Assembly (NCBI GenBank): GCA_003222385.1
Contig: QHVV01000108.1
Span: forward strand, 7,425-45,346
Source: Acidobacteriota bacterium
GTDB taxonomy: Bacteria > Acidobacteriota > Thermoanaerobaculia > UBA5066 > Gp7-AA6
Length of the DNA stretch: 37,922 nt
Direction of reading: 5' to 3'
How positions within the stretch are numbered: the stretch's first letter is position 1; the number at the start of each line of letters is the position of its first letter. Both the position numbers and the translations under genes were made by a program. The notes below the pieces were generated by a model. It saw only the letters and a program-made list of their open reading frames with translations. It was not told the DNA's origin and made no database searches. This document shows, in pieces, positions 23,946 through 34,478 of the stretch.

Positions 23946-25322
23946 TTACTGCTCGCGGATCTCGAGCCGCTTGATGATCTCGTGGAGCGTCGTGGGTTTC
24001 AACTTCAGGAGCTCCGCGGCGCGCTTCTGGACTCCGCCGGTACGCCGCAGCGCCGTGCGGATCAATCGCCGCTCGTACTCCTCGATCAGGTCGCGGTAGG
24101 TCGACCCGTTTTCGGGCAACCGGATGAGCGCCTCTCCGTGCCCGGGCTGAAGGACGGTCTCGGGAAGAAGGTCGAGGCCGATCGAGCCGCCGGAGCACAG
24201 CACGACCGCCCGTTCGATCGCGTTCTCGAGCTCGCGGACGTTGCCCGGCCAGTCGTAGTCGAGGAGCGCCTTCATGGTCTCCGGTTCGAGGCCCGAGATC
24301 GGCTTGTCGTTCTCGGACGCGTAGAGCCGGACGAAGTGATCGGCCAGGAGCGGGATGTCCTCGCGGCGGTCGCGCAGCGGAGGAATCGGAATCGTGATCA
24401 CGCAGAGCCGGTAGTACAGGTCCTCGCGGAAGCGCCCTTCGCCCACCATCTTCTTCAGGTCCACGTTAGTCGCGGCGATGATCCGGACGTCCGCCTTCTG
24501 CGTCTCGACCGAGCCCAGACGCATGAACTCTTTTTCCTGGATGACACGGAGGAGCTTCGCCTGCGTCTCGAGTCCCACCGTCCCGATCTCGTCTAAGAAA
24601 ATCGAGCCGCCCTCCGCGACCTCGAACAGCCCTTTCTTGTTCGCCACGGCTCCGGTGAAAGCGCCGCGGACATGGCCGAAGAGGTTCGACTCGAGGAGGT
24701 CCGCGGGCATCGAGCCGGAGTTCACGGTGACGAAGGGGGCGCCGGAGCGGGGCGAGTGGGTGTGGATGGCGCGCGCGACGAGCTCTTTCCCGGTGCCGCT
24801 CTCTCCCTCGACGAGAATCGTAGATTTCGACGGGCCCGCGAGCCGGACGAGGTCGAAGACCCGGCGCATCCCTTCGGACTTCCCGACGATGCGGCCGAGG
24901 CCGTAGCGTTTCGAGAGCTCCTCCTTCAGGCGGCGGTTCTCCTCGGTCAGGCGCCGCGCGTCGGCGCCCTTGCGCACCGTGAGTAAGACTTCCTGGTTCT
25001 GGAAGGGCTTCGGGATGTAGTGGAAAGCGCCTTCGCGCATCGCGTGGATCGCGCCCTCGATCGACGAATACGCCGTCACGATGACCACGACGGCGTCCGG
25101 ATCCTGCCGGCGCACGTCGCGCAGGAGGTCGAGCCCGGACCGGTCGGGAAGCATGAGGTCGAGGAGAACGACGTCGTACGGCTCGGCCTCGAACAGGGTG
25201 AGCGCCTCTCCGGCGGTCGACGCGACCGCTACCTCGTAGCCCTCCTTCTCGAGCAGGGTCGCGAGGACGTCGCGAATGACCTCCTCGTCGTCCACGACGA
25301 GAATTCGCAGATCGCGGCTCAC
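23946..25322 (-). CDS. NtrC-family sigma-54-dependent response regulator
   Basis: 458 residues from a GTG overlapping the histidine-kinase stop (GTGA). Receiver domain (1-120) with acidic pocket D11/D12, phosphorylation site D55 in 'VVLLDLMLPDRSG' and K in 'YIPKPF'. AAA+ domain (about 145-375) with Walker A 'GESGTGKE', the sigma-54-contacting GAFTGA motif, Walker B 'GGSIFLDEIG' and arginine fingers in 'FREDLYYRL'. The C-terminal Fis-type HTH ('GGVQKRAAELLKLKPTTLHEIIKRL') binds enhancer DNA. It should activate sigma-54 promoters after phosphorylation by the coupled kinase. One strong candidate target promoter is at 32621-32635 in this window, but no operator is identified. Confidence 0.95.
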   Translation of the reverse strand: MSRDLRILVVDDEEVIRDVLATLLEKEGYEVAVASTAGEALTLFEAEPYDVVLLDLMLPDRSGLDLLRDVRRQDPDAVVVIVTAYSSIEGAIHAMREGAFHYIPKPFQNQEVLLTVRKGADARRLTEENRRLKEELSKRYGLGRIVGKSEGMRRVFDLVRLAGPSKSTILVEGESGTGKELVARAIHTHSPRSGAPFVTVNSGSMPADLLESNLFGHVRGAFTGAVANKKGLFEVAEGGSIFLDEIGTVGLETQAKLLRVIQEKEFMRLGSVETQKADVRIIAATNVDLKKMVGEGRFREDLYYRLCVITIPIPPLRDRREDIPLLADHFVRLYASENDKPISGLEPETMKALLDYDWPGNVRELENAIERAVVLCSGGSIGLDLLPETVLQPGHGEALIRLPENGSTYRDLIEEYERRLIRTALRRTGGVQKRAAELLKLKPTTLHEIIKRLEIREQ

Positions 25323-28051
25323 GAAAGCCTCTCCTTCTTCCCCGACCGGTCGCCCGACGCGAGAGGCAGCGTCACCCACGCGACGGTCCCTCCTCCCTCG
25401 CGGGGCGCGAGGCCGATGTCGCCGCCGTGCCGGAGGACGATGTCGCGTGAGATCGCAAGGCCGAGCCCCATGCCGCCCGCTTTCTTCGTCGTGTAGAACG
25501 GCTGAAACAGGCGGTCGCCCGCGTCGGGTGGAATGCCGGTCCCGCGGTCTGCGATCGACACGCGCGCGACGTCTCCTTCCCGAAGGACCTCGCACGAGAT
25601 GGTCCCGTCTTCGGGCGATGCGTCGCGCGCATTGGTCAGCAGGTTGACGAAAACCTGTTCGAGCTCGCGCGCGTCGCCCAGGACTTCGACCGGCGCGCCG
25701 CCGTCGCCGGAAACGGTCAGCTGTCGCGACCCGAACGAGGTCTCGACGGACTCGGCGGCGTTGGCGAGGACGGCCTTGAGGTCGGTGCGCACTTCCGCGC
25801 GCTTCCTCGGGCGCGCGAATTCGAGCAGGTTGTTGACGAGGTGCGCGGCCCGGAACGTCTGGCGCTCCATCTTCTTCAGGATCGCGTACCGCGGATCGCC
25901 GGGCGACGTCTCCGACAGCAGTAGCTGCGCGTAGGAAGACAGGCCCGCGATCGGCGTGTTCACCTCGTGCGCGACGCCGGCCGCGAGGATACCGAGCGAG
26001 GCGAGGCGCTCGCGCTCGGCAAGTGCCCTCTCCATCTTCAGCCGGTCGGTCACGTCGTCCACCAGCACGACGCGGCGATCGGGCGCTCCCTGAAGACGCG
26101 AGATCGAGACGCGCAGGTCGCGACCGACCCCGTCCGGCCCGGTGAAGGTCGTTTCGAACGTCTTCTCCTCGTCGCCGACCGGCGCGTTCCCGAGCCCGAC
26201 GCCCGGAAGAATTTCGGAGAAATTCCGGGTCAGGAGCTCGGCTTCGTCACGCCGAACGAGCTGCGCGAAAGCGGGGTTCGCCGAGTGCACGCTATCGTTA
26301 CCATCCAGGACGACGATCCCCGAAGACGAGGATCGGATGACGCTCTCCTGGTACTGCTGCAGCGCCCGGATCTCTTCGAGCCGGTCGGCCAGCGCTCCAT
26401 AGAGGCGCGCGTTCTCGTAGGCGAGGCCCGCCTGCGCCATCACGGCGGAGAGCAGCGACTCGTCTTCCGAAGACAGCGGCACGCGCCCGTCCTTGTGCCC
26501 GACGCCGAGCGCGCCGGCGAGCTTACCGCCCGAGTGCATCGCGAAGAACGTGCGGTAGCCCATCGCGTGGAGGTGCTGAGCCGCGGGGTGATCTCCCGGA
26601 CCGAAGGCGGAGGCGCGAAGGCGCCACATCTCTTCGCCGGAGAGCCGCGCGGCGAGCAGCGCGCCTTCGGGCGTGTCGCCGTCGCCGTTCTCGAGCAGGA
26701 AGAGCGAGCAGGGCACGACGTGCAGCCCCTCCTCGACCCGCCGGACGACCGCGTTGACCAGCTCTTCCTTCGGCCTCGGTGTGGAGAAGTCGCGGGCGAC
26801 GTCGAGGAGCGCCCGCCGGGCTCGATATGTCTCGCGGTACTGGATCTTCTCGAGGGCGTCGGTCAGGCGCCTCTTCACCGGGACGAGGAGAGAGGCGAGG
26901 ACGAGACCCGAGGCGAAGGCGATCACGTTCTTGCCGGCGTCGGCCATCCCGACGAGCGTCCGGTCGAGCAGCGCGTTCAGCAGAACGAACGTCATCCCGC
27001 CGAGCAGCACGGCGCCGGTCGCCGCGACCGCCTCGCGGACATAGATCTCCACGTCCCACAGGCGCCACCTGAGAATCGCCCACGCGAACGCGAGCGGGAT
27101 GAACACGAGCGGAACCACCGCGACGGTCGAGAGGAGAGGCGATGCGAAACCGAGCGCCCGGGGCAGCGCGGAAAGAAGCACGAACGGCGCGAGACCCACG
27201 GTGACGCCGAGCACGACCCAGCGGGTCTGTTTTTCGGCGTCGGGGCTCTCGCGGGTCCGGAGGAGGTTCGCCAGCCGGGCGAGGACCGCGATCGCATACA
27301 GCGCGAAATAGAGGAACCAGAGCCGTGTCGCGGTCTCGGCGGCGCGCGCGGCTTCCCGGACGTCCAGGTTCAGGAGCACGGGCTGCGCGGCGACGTAGGC
27401 GGCGGCCGGCAGGTAGAGCAGCGGGATAAGTCGGCGCGACCGGACCGGGCGCGGAAAGATCAGGAAGAGATGAAGGAGAAGAGCGGGAAGCAGGGCGCGG
27501 AAGAAGTCCTCCGCGAGCCAGGTGATCTTCCAGACGGAGTCGTGCGGCCCCGCGGGCGTGAGCACGTAGATCGCGAAGGAAGACAGGCAGAGGGCCCAGA
27601 AGACCCGCGACGCCGGAGCGCGCTCCCGCGCGACCGTGAAGAGCCCGATCGCGAGATAGAGCAATCCGACGAACGCGAGGAAGAGGTACGTGAAGTCCGG
27701 CCGAATGGACGGCTCCTGGATCGCAAGCGCGTTGATCGATCCGTTCGAAAGGACGACGACGCGGTGGGGGAAGGGCCGCCGTCCGAGATCCTTCTCCGGC
27801 CAGTCCAGAGATGCCGCCGTTCGTCCGTCCGCGAGCACGATCCGATCTCCGGGGCGCAGGCCGGCCGCTTCCGCGGCGCTCCCCGGCTCGACACGTCCGA
27901 TGACCAGAGAGTCCCCGGCACGCTCGGCGGCGAAGCCCGCCGTCCGGAAGGTCGCGACCTTTCTCGCGAACGAGACGAATGCGAGTCCCACCGTCGCGGC
28001 GGTCAACGCCACGGCGACGGTCAGAAGAAGAATTTTCAGGCCGCGGGGCAC
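25319..28051 (-). CDS. PDZ-membrane-GAF-PAS sensor histidine kinase
   Basis: 910 residues from a GTG giving 'PRGLKILLLTVAVALTAATVGLAF' as a first membrane helix. A TTG at 28168 would add 39 residues but falls in the predicted -10 box, so it is not preferred. Order: helix 1 (5-28), a PDZ-like domain outside the membrane (about 40-112; 'VEPGSAAEAAGLRPGDRIVLADG'), about eight further helices, GAF (about 430-560), PAS ('SVIRSSSSGIVVLDGNDSV'), HisKA with H695 in 'LAAGVAHEVNTPIAGL', and HATPase ('NLLTNARDAS', 'DRGTGIPP', 'GMGLGLAIS'). Its GTGA overlap with the NtrC regulator makes a two-component pair almost certain. The signal is unknown; a PDZ could bind misfolded or unfinished envelope-protein C-termini. 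Confidence 0.93.
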   Translation of the reverse strand: MPRGLKILLLTVAVALTAATVGLAFVSFARKVATFRTAGFAAERAGDSLVIGRVEPGSAAEAAGLRPGDRIVLADGRTAASLDWPEKDLGRRPFPHRVVVLSNGSINALAIQEPSIRPDFTYLFLAFVGLLYLAIGLFTVARERAPASRVFWALCLSSFAIYVLTPAGPHDSVWKITWLAEDFFRALLPALLLHLFLIFPRPVRSRRLIPLLYLPAAAYVAAQPVLLNLDVREAARAAETATRLWFLYFALYAIAVLARLANLLRTRESPDAEKQTRWVVLGVTVGLAPFVLLSALPRALGFASPLLSTVAVVPLVFIPLAFAWAILRWRLWDVEIYVREAVAATGAVLLGGMTFVLLNALLDRTLVGMADAGKNVIAFASGLVLASLLVPVKRRLTDALEKIQYRETYRARRALLDVARDFSTPRPKEELVNAVVRRVEEGLHVVPCSLFLLENGDGDTPEGALLAARLSGEEMWRLRASAFGPGDHPAAQHLHAMGYRTFFAMHSGGKLAGALGVGHKDGRVPLSSEDESLLSAVMAQAGLAYENARLYGALADRLEEIRALQQYQESVIRSSSSGIVVLDGNDSVHSANPAFAQLVRRDEAELLTRNFSEILPGVGLGNAPVGDEEKTFETTFTGPDGVGRDLRVSISRLQGAPDRRVVLVDDVTDRLKMERALAERERLASLGILAAGVAHEVNTPIAGLSSYAQLLLSETSPGDPRYAILKKMERQTFRAAHLVNNLLEFARPRKRAEVRTDLKAVLANAAESVETSFGSRQLTVSGDGGAPVEVLGDARELEQVFVNLLTNARDASPEDGTISCEVLREGDVARVSIADRGTGIPPDAGDRLFQPFYTTKKAGGMGLGLAISRDIVLRHGGDIGLAPREGGGTVAWVTLPLASGDRSGKKERLS

Positions 28052-28159
28052 GGCTGCGGATTCAGCAATGCGAATGCCACGTTCGGAATTCTGAGAGTCG
28101 CTGCTAAGCCTTTTCCGAAGAGGCCTTTCCGGTTCCTGCCGCCTTCGGGCGCCGCCCGC

Positions 28160-28187
28160 ATTATCCAAGTATTTGAACGCGGTTCAA
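28160..28187 (-). promoter_or_regulatory. Sigma-70-type promoter of the kinase/NtrC operon with overlapping palindrome
   Basis: On the minus strand TTGAAC (28187-28182), a 16-base spacer, then GATAAT (28165-28160). The -35 box is one arm of a perfect palindrome, TTGAAC-GCG-GTTCAA on the plus strand (28173-28187), so a bound repressor would block polymerase. Predicted transcription start near 28153, leaving a leader of about 100 bases before the GTG at 28051. Confidence 0.55.
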
Positions 28188-32019: not shown

Positions 32020-32610
32020 TTGTCGATCCGCAAGGTGCTCGGACTCGCGCTCGTCGTCGCGGGAATCTCCGCGACTCCCGGTTTCGCGCAGGACTGGGGG
32101 ATCGGCGCCTCGATCGGTCTCCAAAGCGACATCGAGCGCCATTTCCGGCTCGACGACTTCGCGGCGCGCGACGGAAACGCGTGGGTCGATTTCCGGCTCC
32201 AGGAGAAGGTCCTTCTCCGGGGCACGTTCGGCTCGATGAAGGTGAAGGGGGACAACGCGGGCCGGACCGTCGACGTCAACGGAGAGGACGTTGTCCTTCC
32301 CGATCTCAAAACGCGCATCGACTACGCGACGATCGGGGTGTCGTACCAGTTCTGGGAAGGCGACTACACGTCCGGTTTCTTCGGAGGGATCGGCGGCTAC
32401 AAGGTCAACCCCGATCCGGCGCCTTCCGAAGCCATCACGAATTTTCGCGATGCCCGCGAATCGGTTTTCGGATGGCACATCGGCGTGGACGGCGACCTCC
32501 GGGTGGTCTCGCGCCTCTCGATCGTGGGCCGGCTGACGTTCCACGAGATCTACTCGCTGTCGCGACGCTCGATCCTGACGGCAAATGCGGGGGCGATCTT
32601 CCGCTTCTGA
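32020..32610 (+). CDS. Small outer-membrane beta-barrel protein
   Basis: 196 residues from a TTG preceded by GGGAGGTGG. Signal peptide 'SIRKVLGLALVVAGISATPGFAQ', then about 170 residues of short amphipathic strands ('WGIGASIGL', 'AWVDFRLQEKVLLRGTFGSM', 'TIGVSYQFWEGDYTSGFFGGIGGYKV', 'FGWHIGVDGDLRV', 'LSIVGRLTFHEIY') and the C-terminal motif 'ANAGAIFRF'. This fits an eight-stranded OmpA/OmpW-like barrel (outer membrane protein beta-barrel domain). No OmpA-like peptidoglycan domain. Function unknown; such proteins are often involved in envelope stability or small-molecule passage. Confidence 0.82.
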   Translation: MSIRKVLGLALVVAGISATPGFAQDWGIGASIGLQSDIERHFRLDDFAARDGNAWVDFRLQEKVLLRGTFGSMKVKGDNAGRTVDVNGEDVVLPDLKTRIDYATIGVSYQFWEGDYTSGFFGGIGGYKVNPDPAPSEAITNFRDARESVFGWHIGVDGDLRVVSRLSIVGRLTFHEIYSLSRRSILTANAGAIFRF

Positions 32611-32620
32611 ACCATCGCGG

Positions 32621-32635
32621 TGGCACCCCCTTTGC
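32621..32635 (+). promoter_or_regulatory. Strong sigma-54 (-24/-12) promoter candidate
   Basis: TGGCACCCCCTTTGC: the -24 element TGGCAC and -12 element TTGC with exactly ten bases between GG (32622-32623) and GC (32634-32635), as sigma-54 requires. The next bases, AT, match the extended -12 element. Predicted start near 32647. It lies in a 263-base gap with no long gene downstream on the plus strand. I found no other match of this quality in the window. Confidence 0.65.
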
Positions 32636-32655
32636 ATCGACACGGCGCAACGTTT

Positions 32656-32745
32656 ATGTCCAAGGCAAGCGGTCCCGCCCCCTTTGCCCACTGTACCGAC
32701 CGCCGGAGCTCCCGCGCGGCCCGGCCCAAGACTTTCCGCTTCTAG
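32656..32745 (+). CDS. Candidate 29-codon ORF behind sigma-54 promoter
   Basis: ATG to TAG, encoding MSKASGPAPFAHC... and ending ...ARPKTFRF. It starts about 9 bases after the predicted sigma-54 start, similar to the short leaders elsewhere here. No ribosome site is visible, the peptide is basic and rich in Arg, Ser and Pro, and I do not recognise it. The alternative is that the sigma-54 transcript is a non-coding RNA covering about 32647-32870. The gap also contains CCGGC-GAAA-GCCGG and CTCCC-TTC-GGGAG stems, in keeping with a structured RNA. Treat as a hypothesis. Confidence 0.25.
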   Translation: MSKASGPAPFAHCTDRRSSRAARPKTFRF

Positions 32746-32873
32746 GGATCCCACCCGAAAAGGCCGTCAGGCCGATCCGTCCGGCGAAAGCCGGGCGGAC
32801 GCCCTCCATTCACGTCGCTCTCGCAGCGTGAGGCTCCTCCCTTCGGGAGACTGTTCGCGCTGCGACGAAAGCT

Positions 32874-33350
32874 CTACTTTTCTTTGTCCGGCTCGTTCAC
32901 GAGCGGGAGGAGCGTGGACTCCTTCTTGGAGGCGAGTGAGAGGCAGGTGCGGGTGCGGGCGACCCCTCGGATCGCGAGCAGCCGATGCTGGATGAAGTCC
33001 GCGAGCGAGCCGGGGTTGGACGCCTTGACCTTCAGGCGGTAGGCGAAGTCGCCCGCCAGGTAGTGGCACTCCTGCACGGCCAGGAGCCTCTCGAGATCAT
33101 CGACGAAGCTCTTCTCGAATCGGGGATGCTCCAGGGCGACGTCGATGTATGCGGTGAGCGGAAGGCCCATCTTCTCGTGGTCGAGCAGCGCGACGAAACC
33201 CTTGATCATTCCGTGCCGCTCCATCTTCTTGATCCGTTCGTTGACGGAGGGCGTCGTCAGGCCCACGGCGCCGGCGATCTTCGCCTGCGACAGCTTTCCA
33301 TTGCGCTGCAACATGTCGAGGATTCGGAGATCGATGTCGTCGATAGCCAA
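32874..33350 (-). CDS. Lrp/AsnC-family transcriptional regulator
   Basis: 158 residues from a TTG with GAGG five bases before it. N-terminal winged HTH (about 3-60: 'DDIDLRILDMLQRNGKLSQAKIAGAVGLTTPSVNERIKKMERHG' in outline) and C-terminal RAM ligand-binding domain ('GFVALLDHEKMGLPLTAYIDVAL', 'VQECHYLAGDFAYRLKVKA', 'IRGVARTRTCLSLASKKE'). Lrp-type proteins bind DNA as octamers or dimers and respond to amino acids. It is transcribed divergently from the DnaJ-like gene with an AT-rich palindrome between them, so autoregulation is likely. The proline dehydrogenase gene nearby is a conceivable target, by analogy with PutR-like Lrp regulators, but nothing here proves it. Confidence 0.93.
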   Translation of the reverse strand: MAIDDIDLRILDMLQRNGKLSQAKIAGAVGLTTPSVNERIKKMERHGMIKGFVALLDHEKMGLPLTAYIDVALEHPRFEKSFVDDLERLLAVQECHYLAGDFAYRLKVKASNPGSLADFIQHRLLAIRGVARTRTCLSLASKKESTLLPLVNEPDKEK

Positions 33351-33392: not shown

Positions 33393-33405
33393 CTAATAAT
33401 ATTAG
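33393..33405. promoter_or_regulatory. AT-rich palindrome, candidate Lrp/AsnC operator
   Basis: CTAATA-A-TATTAG, a perfect 6-1-6 inverted repeat in the 111-base divergent region. It is embedded in an unusually AT-rich patch (about 33363-33407) for this genome. Lrp-family sites are AT-rich inverted repeats of 13-15 bases, so this fits autoregulation of the adjacent regulator, with possible effect on the DnaJ-like gene. Confidence 0.5.
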
Positions 33406-33443
33406 ACTCTCGTCGGGTGTCAAAGTCTTAATTTCGGCCTGAC

Positions 33444-33461: not shown

Positions 33462-34478
33462 ATGAAAAAGCGCGATTACTACGAGGTTTTGGGTGTGTCG
33501 AAAGGTGCTTCCGAGGCCGACGTCAAGAAGGCCTATCGGCGCCTGGCCCGAAAGCTTCATCCGGACGTCAACCCGGGCGACAAGACCTCCCAGAAGCGTT
33601 TTCAGGAAGTCCAGGAAGCCTACGAGGTCCTGAAGGATTCCGAGAAGCGCCGCGCCTACGACCGCTTCGGGCACGCGGCTTCGTCCGCGGGCTTCGATGC
33701 CGAAGCCGCGGGGGGCTTCGGCCGCGGGGGCTCGCCGTTTCCCGGGGGAGGATCTCCGTTCCCGAACGTCTCCTACGAGTCCACCGATTTCTCGGAGCTC
33801 TTCGGAAACATCTTCGGCGGCGCGTCCCGGTTCCGGACCGGCCCCGAGAACGGAGAGCCGTCCTACGGAACGATCGAGGTTCCCTTCCGCGACGCCGTGC
33901 TCGGAGGAACCGCGTCGCTATCTCTTCGTCGCGAGAAAGAGTGCCCGACATGCCACGGATCGGGACGGACCGGGCGCACGGTCTGCGCGACCTGCCGGGG
34001 AGCGGGCAAGGTCGCGGAAGCCGAGACGATCCGGATCCGGATTCCGGAAGGCACCGCGGACGGAGGGACCATCCGCATTCCCGGAAAGGGTGGACCCGGC
34101 TCCCGCGGCGGAGAGGCGGGAGACCTCTTCGTCACGGTGCGCGTGACGCCGCACTCCTACTTCGAAAGACGCGGGGACGACATCCACGGAATCGTCCCCA
34201 TCACCGTGAAGGAGGCGTACGCCGGGGCGGAGATCGACGTCCCCACGATCCACGGCACGTATCGCGCGAAGATCCCGGCCGGGACGCAGGGACGGCAGAA
34301 GTTCCGGCTGCGCGGAAAGGGAGTGAAGAACCCGCGCACGGGAGAGACCGGAGACCACATCTATACGGTGCGGATCGTGGTGCCGAACTCGAAGACGCCG
34401 GCCGGCCTCGACGCCACGACGCTGCTCGACTCGCTGTACGAGCGTCCGGTGAGAGAAGGGTTACCGAAAGGAATCTAG
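33462..34478 (+). CDS. DnaJ/CbpA-like co-chaperone with two zinc motifs
   Basis: 338 residues. J domain with HPD (33-35), Gly/Phe-rich linker (about 70-130), then a DnaJ C-terminal substrate-binding domain interrupted by only two CxxCxGxG motifs, CPTCHGSG (161-168) and CATCRGAG (175-182). DnaJ normally has four motifs making two zinc centres, and CbpA has none, so this is intermediate: one zinc centre at most. '[23 protein letters not shown]' and the C-terminal domain II '[31 protein letters not shown]' are intact. It should stimulate a DnaK partner, which is not in the window. The gene is alone with its own promoter, divergent from the Lrp gene. Confidence 0.92.

Follow-up and report, generated by a model that had tools for sequence, protein, structure and literature searches.

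CrcZ of Pseudomonas is a sigma-54-controlled regulatory RNA. The Qrr RNAs of Vibrio work in a comparable manner, with a sigma-54 promoter and an enhancer-binding protein leading to a regulatory RNA (PMC10162802). In enterobacteria, GlmY is an envelope-linked small RNA. It has a sigma-54 promoter and a two-component activator, QseE/QseF (PMC6075780, PMC3162934). Pxr, from myxobacteria, comes from a small RNA gene that stands alone behind a predicted sigma-54 promoter, and its stem-loops are conserved in the clade. Accumulation of Pxr requires a conserved stem in the 3' part of the RNA (PMC5684412).

The candidate presented here likewise stands alone behind a predicted sigma-54 promoter and carries a 3' hairpin. 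However, Pxr belongs to another phylum, follows its own activator gene (pxrR) and does not lie between convergent genes; this comparison is made by description (PMC5684412). The candidate differs from GlmY in that its region has no Rfam match, and the NtrC-type pair found 4-9 kb upstream also occurs in a relative without the module. Qrr and CrcZ are also from another phylum, and again no Rfam match links the candidate to them. On these likenesses, it would belong to the broad kind of sigma-54-dependent small RNAs. We do not claim membership in the Pxr, GlmY or Qrr families.

We analysed a stretch of 37,922 nucleotides (the window) from contig QHVV01000108.1 of an uncultured Acidobacteriota bacterium (GCA_003222385.1, here G000), whose assembly has 3.6 Mb in 231 contigs. 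Two relatives were compared: G002, another genus of the same family, and G001, a third genus. The sequence-only reading of this DNA had described a TGGCAC-N5-TTGC element with exact GG-N10-GC spacing, in a 263-base gap, and downstream of it 800 bases without a conventional gene on its strand. We find all of these. The element is on the + strand at 32621-32635, the gap spans 32611-32873 between an outer-membrane-type gene (+) and an Lrp/AsnC gene (-), and dnaJ, which begins at 33462, is the first gene to follow on the strand of the element. That reading ended at 32745. This limit cuts off a conserved block (32738-32811) which it had not singled out. The features are the following.

32020-32610, + strand: outer-membrane-type protein gene, 196 aa (open reading frame with a signal-like N-terminus), the upstream neighbour
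32621-32635, + strand: sigma-54 -24/-12 promoter, TGGCAC-CCCCT-TTGC, TGGCACCCCCTTTGC, exact match
32647-32648, + strand: predicted transcription start, about 12 bases past the GC, from sigma-54 promoter geometry
32656-32745, + strand: open reading frame MSKASGPAPFAHCTDRRSSRAARPKTFRF, 29 codons, from ATG at 32656 to TAG at 32745, probably no gene
32738-32811, + strand: conserved block that would form the 3' half of the presumed RNA, 63/74 bases identical in G002
32770-32804, + strand: 35-base stretch with no change in G002 (alignment)
32776-32799, + strand: 10-pair hairpin UCCGUCCGGC-GAAA-GCCGGGCGGA (folding)
32874-33350, - strand: Lrp/AsnC-family regulator gene (lrp; Pfam PF13404, PF01037), the convergent neighbour
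33462-34478, + strand: dnaJ (Pfam PF00226, PF01556), the first same-strand gene past the promoter

The order of outer-membrane gene, gap, convergent lrp and dnaJ is identical in G002. The coding neighbours of the locus show protein identities down to 71-84%. The outer-membrane-type protein has no Pfam match, and its gene has counterparts at the same position in G002 and G001. The Lrp/AsnC regulator is 84% identical in G002 and 78% in G001. Searched against named organisms, it found two known relatives (Acidobacteria metagenome bins) and otherwise distant Lrp proteins only. Ahead of lrp, a near-consensus sigma-70 promoter, TTGACA-16-TATTAT, lies on the - strand at 33396-33423 and is present in both genomes (G002: L002 2021-2048).

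The sigma-54 element begins 11 bases past the stop codon of the outer-membrane-type gene and is the sole exact match to TGGCAC-N5-TTGC within the window. Its GG (32622-3) and GC (32634-5) are exactly 10 bases apart. The base following TTGC is A, which is part of the extended sigma-54 consensus. At the corresponding place, between the same two genes, G002 retains TGGCAC-TCTTG-TTGC. The ten defining bases are identical in both genomes and the five spacer bases are mostly different. Around the promoter, identity is 31% before it, 50% in the leader and 46% in the open reading frame region. Dinucleotide shuffles produced a perfect same-strand site in 6 of 30,000 cases for the window gap and in 16 of 30,000 for the G002 gap (2e-4 and 5e-4). 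Loss of the -24/-12 element in close relatives had been named as evidence against the promoter. The element is exact in G002, but G001 is without the whole module: about 50 bases separate the same genes there, and both the promoter and the conserved block are absent.

Across the genome, the exact sigma-54 motif has 14 copies, against 10 of a reversed control pattern. We rejected this count as evidence, since 14 against 10 is uninformative. That the promoter is more than chance is indicated instead by the placement of the genome's exact sites and by the exact conservation in G002. Ten of the 14 sites stand some 26-90 nt ahead of a plausible gene start, and for nine the distance to the start codon is 26-61 bases, with a Shine-Dalgarno-like stretch present; this placement was scored for the forward pattern only and serves as support, not as a statistic. 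The rpoN gene is intact, and about a dozen strong matches to the sigma-54 activator domain (PF00158) are present in the genome. With this machinery and the conservation in another genus, the promoter reading is supported, and the element at 32621-32635 is very probably functional.

The proteins behind the exact sites are mostly exported or envelope proteins: DUF6600, an OMP beta-barrel, a WXXGXW-repeat protein, an M48 peptidase and DoxX. Published work likewise sees sigma-54 as governing the bacterial exterior (PMC3162934). The same bias holds across the family (L037-L041, L045 and L046 in G000; L132, L138, L145 and L147 in G001 and G002). Some exact sites precede small exported proteins rich in tyrosine and glycine, with no Pfam match. 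Two genes for such proteins, about 2.7 kb apart on one contig (G000:C112), are behind sigma-54 sites. Another exact site is located about 85 bases before the rpoN start codon (G000:C122:12717-12731, - strand; L043). Its position suggests that rpoN could be autoregulated.

Behind the promoter at 32621-32635, the comparison of G000 and G002 shows no conserved coding sequence. The conserved element is the block of 74 bases (32738-32811), starting where the 29-codon frame has its stop codon. It is 85% identical between the two genomes, against 31-50% in its flanks, and the pattern of its substitutions, read off the alignment, is not codon-like. The fold of the block favours the + strand. Its z-score is -2.5 (+) against -0.7 (-) in the window and -3.0 (+) against -0.4 (-) in G002. 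A 39-nt segment with the hairpin reaches -27.0 kcal/mol, with z-scores of -5.2 (+) and -3.2 (-). Only on the + strand does the hairpin have its U-G pair and its GNRA loop. The hairpin pairs are invariant across the two sequences, with no compensatory changes visible.

From these comparisons, we favour, with moderate confidence, a small RNA under sigma-54 control that would be some 165 nt long or longer and whose 3' half is conserved. The sequence-only reading had offered either a non-coding RNA or a small open reading frame. The conserved and strand-biased hairpin block supports the RNA. The open reading frame is unsupported.

A small protein of 29-32 residues under sigma-54 control would be the other product of this promoter. 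The G002 counterpart, of 32 codons, also runs from ATG to TAG, so start, stop and reading frame recur at matching places, and the peptide is arginine-rich in both genomes. However, 14% of shuffled peptides align as well as the two peptides do. We rejected the small-ORF gene on this lack of conservation beyond the shuffled level. The frame has no Pfam match. Its start codon is about 9 bases past the presumed transcription start, and a leader of this length would have no room for a Shine-Dalgarno ribosome-binding site. Moreover, the strongest conservation runs from the stop codon onward, past the frame. The 29-codon frame is probably not a gene, and the small protein is a very improbable product.

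Three other readings were weighed. A real promoter could drive a long antisense transcript over lrp into dnaJ (excludon-like), so that active sigma-54 would mean less Lrp and more DnaJ. The gene arrangement allows it: in G000 and G002, lrp lies antisense directly downstream and dnaJ follows on the same strand. The 3' end of lrp would be antisense to any read-through, and a scan of the window finds no terminator between block and lrp. We consider this unlikely, however. The very stable hairpin precedes lrp, a leader of 827 bases would be unusual, and lrp owns a conserved sigma-70-like promoter. The antisense transcript also leaves unexplained why the 74-base block alone is conserved. Rather improbable, too, is that the block works as DNA, bound downstream of the promoter by the enhancer-binding protein or by another regulator of the promoter or lrp. 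Sigma-54 promoters with enhancer sites downstream are known, and the block is an imperfect inverted repeat in single copy. Yet such a site needs no RNA hairpin of 10 pairs that has a GNRA loop, a U-G pair and a better + strand fold, and in a DNA search the genome's other sigma-54 promoters lack the block. It is quite doubtful that lrp or the outer-membrane-type gene has its 3' end or terminator region in the block, with the promoter as a separate element. The scan finds no terminator, the - strand fold of the block is at shuffle level, and 35 unchanged bases are rare for terminators. In G001 the convergent genes are about 50 bases apart without the block. For this reading speak the position between two convergent genes and, on the - strand, GGCC-N4-GGCC followed by UUUU or UUU.

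Under the small RNA reading, an enhancer-binding protein of the genome would fire the RpoN promoter at 32621-32635. A non-coding RNA would then begin near 32647 and run through the block at 32738-32811. Its end would lie beyond the block; the scan of the window gave no Rho-independent terminator, and a scan of G002 gave one weak candidate, at chance level. The functional part would consist of the single-stranded 5' portion of the block (UAGGNAUCCCACC...AAAGG) and the very stable GAAA-loop hairpin. The hairpin would most likely stabilise the RNA or bind protein. The C-rich conserved stretch UAGGNAUCCCACC would be the likeliest seed for antisense pairing with other mRNAs. An Hfq relative is found in all three genomes (the G002 match is below the curated cut-off), which makes a base-pairing RNA plausible. 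Cell-surface control would be the likeliest theme, since the other exact sigma-54 sites of the genome mostly precede exported or envelope proteins.

A search for antisense target sites of GGTGGGATNCC gave none common to G000 and G002. The locus itself aside, all GGTGGGATNCC sites are within long open frames. One of the sites in G000 (G000:C60:6238-6248, L188) extends to 13 nt of perfect complementarity to the block, UAGGGAUCCCACC; it lies within the DUF6600 gene, and this gene itself follows an exact sigma-54 site. We rejected it as a target: it has no match in G002 and is probably due to chance.

An NtrC-type regulator (23946-25325, - strand) stands next to a histidine kinase with PDZ, GAF and PAS domains (25319-28168, - strand). 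The regulator is one of two sigma-54 activators on the contig, and the pair (23946-28168) has counterparts with 85% and 83% identity in the two further genera. As the dedicated activator of the module it was rejected, since it is at a similar distance in G001, which is without the module. The pair stays a candidate activator without specific support.

Rfam gave no match at the gathering threshold in the window, and none up to E 5 in 32610-32900. On the G002 region it gave only IMES-2, on the other strand, with 14.2 bits against a cut-off of 54.7. On these negatives in the window and in G002 we rejected a known Rfam family. A likeness to the c-di-GMP riboswitch was weighed by eye and is unsupported.

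We ran a covariance search across relatives, as the sequence-only reading had proposed, with a model built from two sequences, on 147 genomes from the class and 396 from the phylum, under Infernal's stricter filters. It finds the element in G000 (E 4e-27) and G002 (E 6e-26), and weak matches only elsewhere. Further searches for the block comprised a DNA search of 101 genomes and a pattern search of 149 class genomes. Beyond G000 and G002, the inspected matches are in open reading frames or overlap them, except for one (L162) that comes right after a gene end. None of the inspected weak matches has a sigma-54 site upstream, and we read them as chance. The block was not found in viral contigs. 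Within the sensitivity of a two-sequence model, the element appears confined to two genera. As G001 has the same neighbours without the module, the module would be dispensable or recent. Its history may be a gain in two genera or a loss in one; both fit.

The chances are about even that this is an undescribed family of sigma-54-controlled regulatory RNA, present in one Acidobacteriota family only, which would couple envelope signalling to post-transcriptional control. A literature search combining sigma-54, small RNA and Acidobacteria found no paper. Regulatory RNAs of Acidobacteriota are little studied, and a promoter with a hairpin across two genera is a concrete, testable candidate. The case also suggests a practical route to such RNAs in uncultured phyla, through orphan sigma-54 sites that are retained between convergent genes. 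The candidate leaves the general picture of sigma-54 biology unchanged: it would be a known kind of regulator, not a new kind of system.

Directly behind the presumed small RNA, the window carries a dispersed hairpin repeat, about 54 bases long (32816-32869). It has the form CGCAGCGTGAG-SCT-CCTCCC-loop-GGGAGA-CT-NCTCRCGCTGCG, and its internal loop looks conserved. One more copy is present in G000 (L024 759-820) and copies occur at about eight places in G002 (L025-L031). The repeat is REP-like, and it is also found in a genome from another family of the same order (G004, L034).
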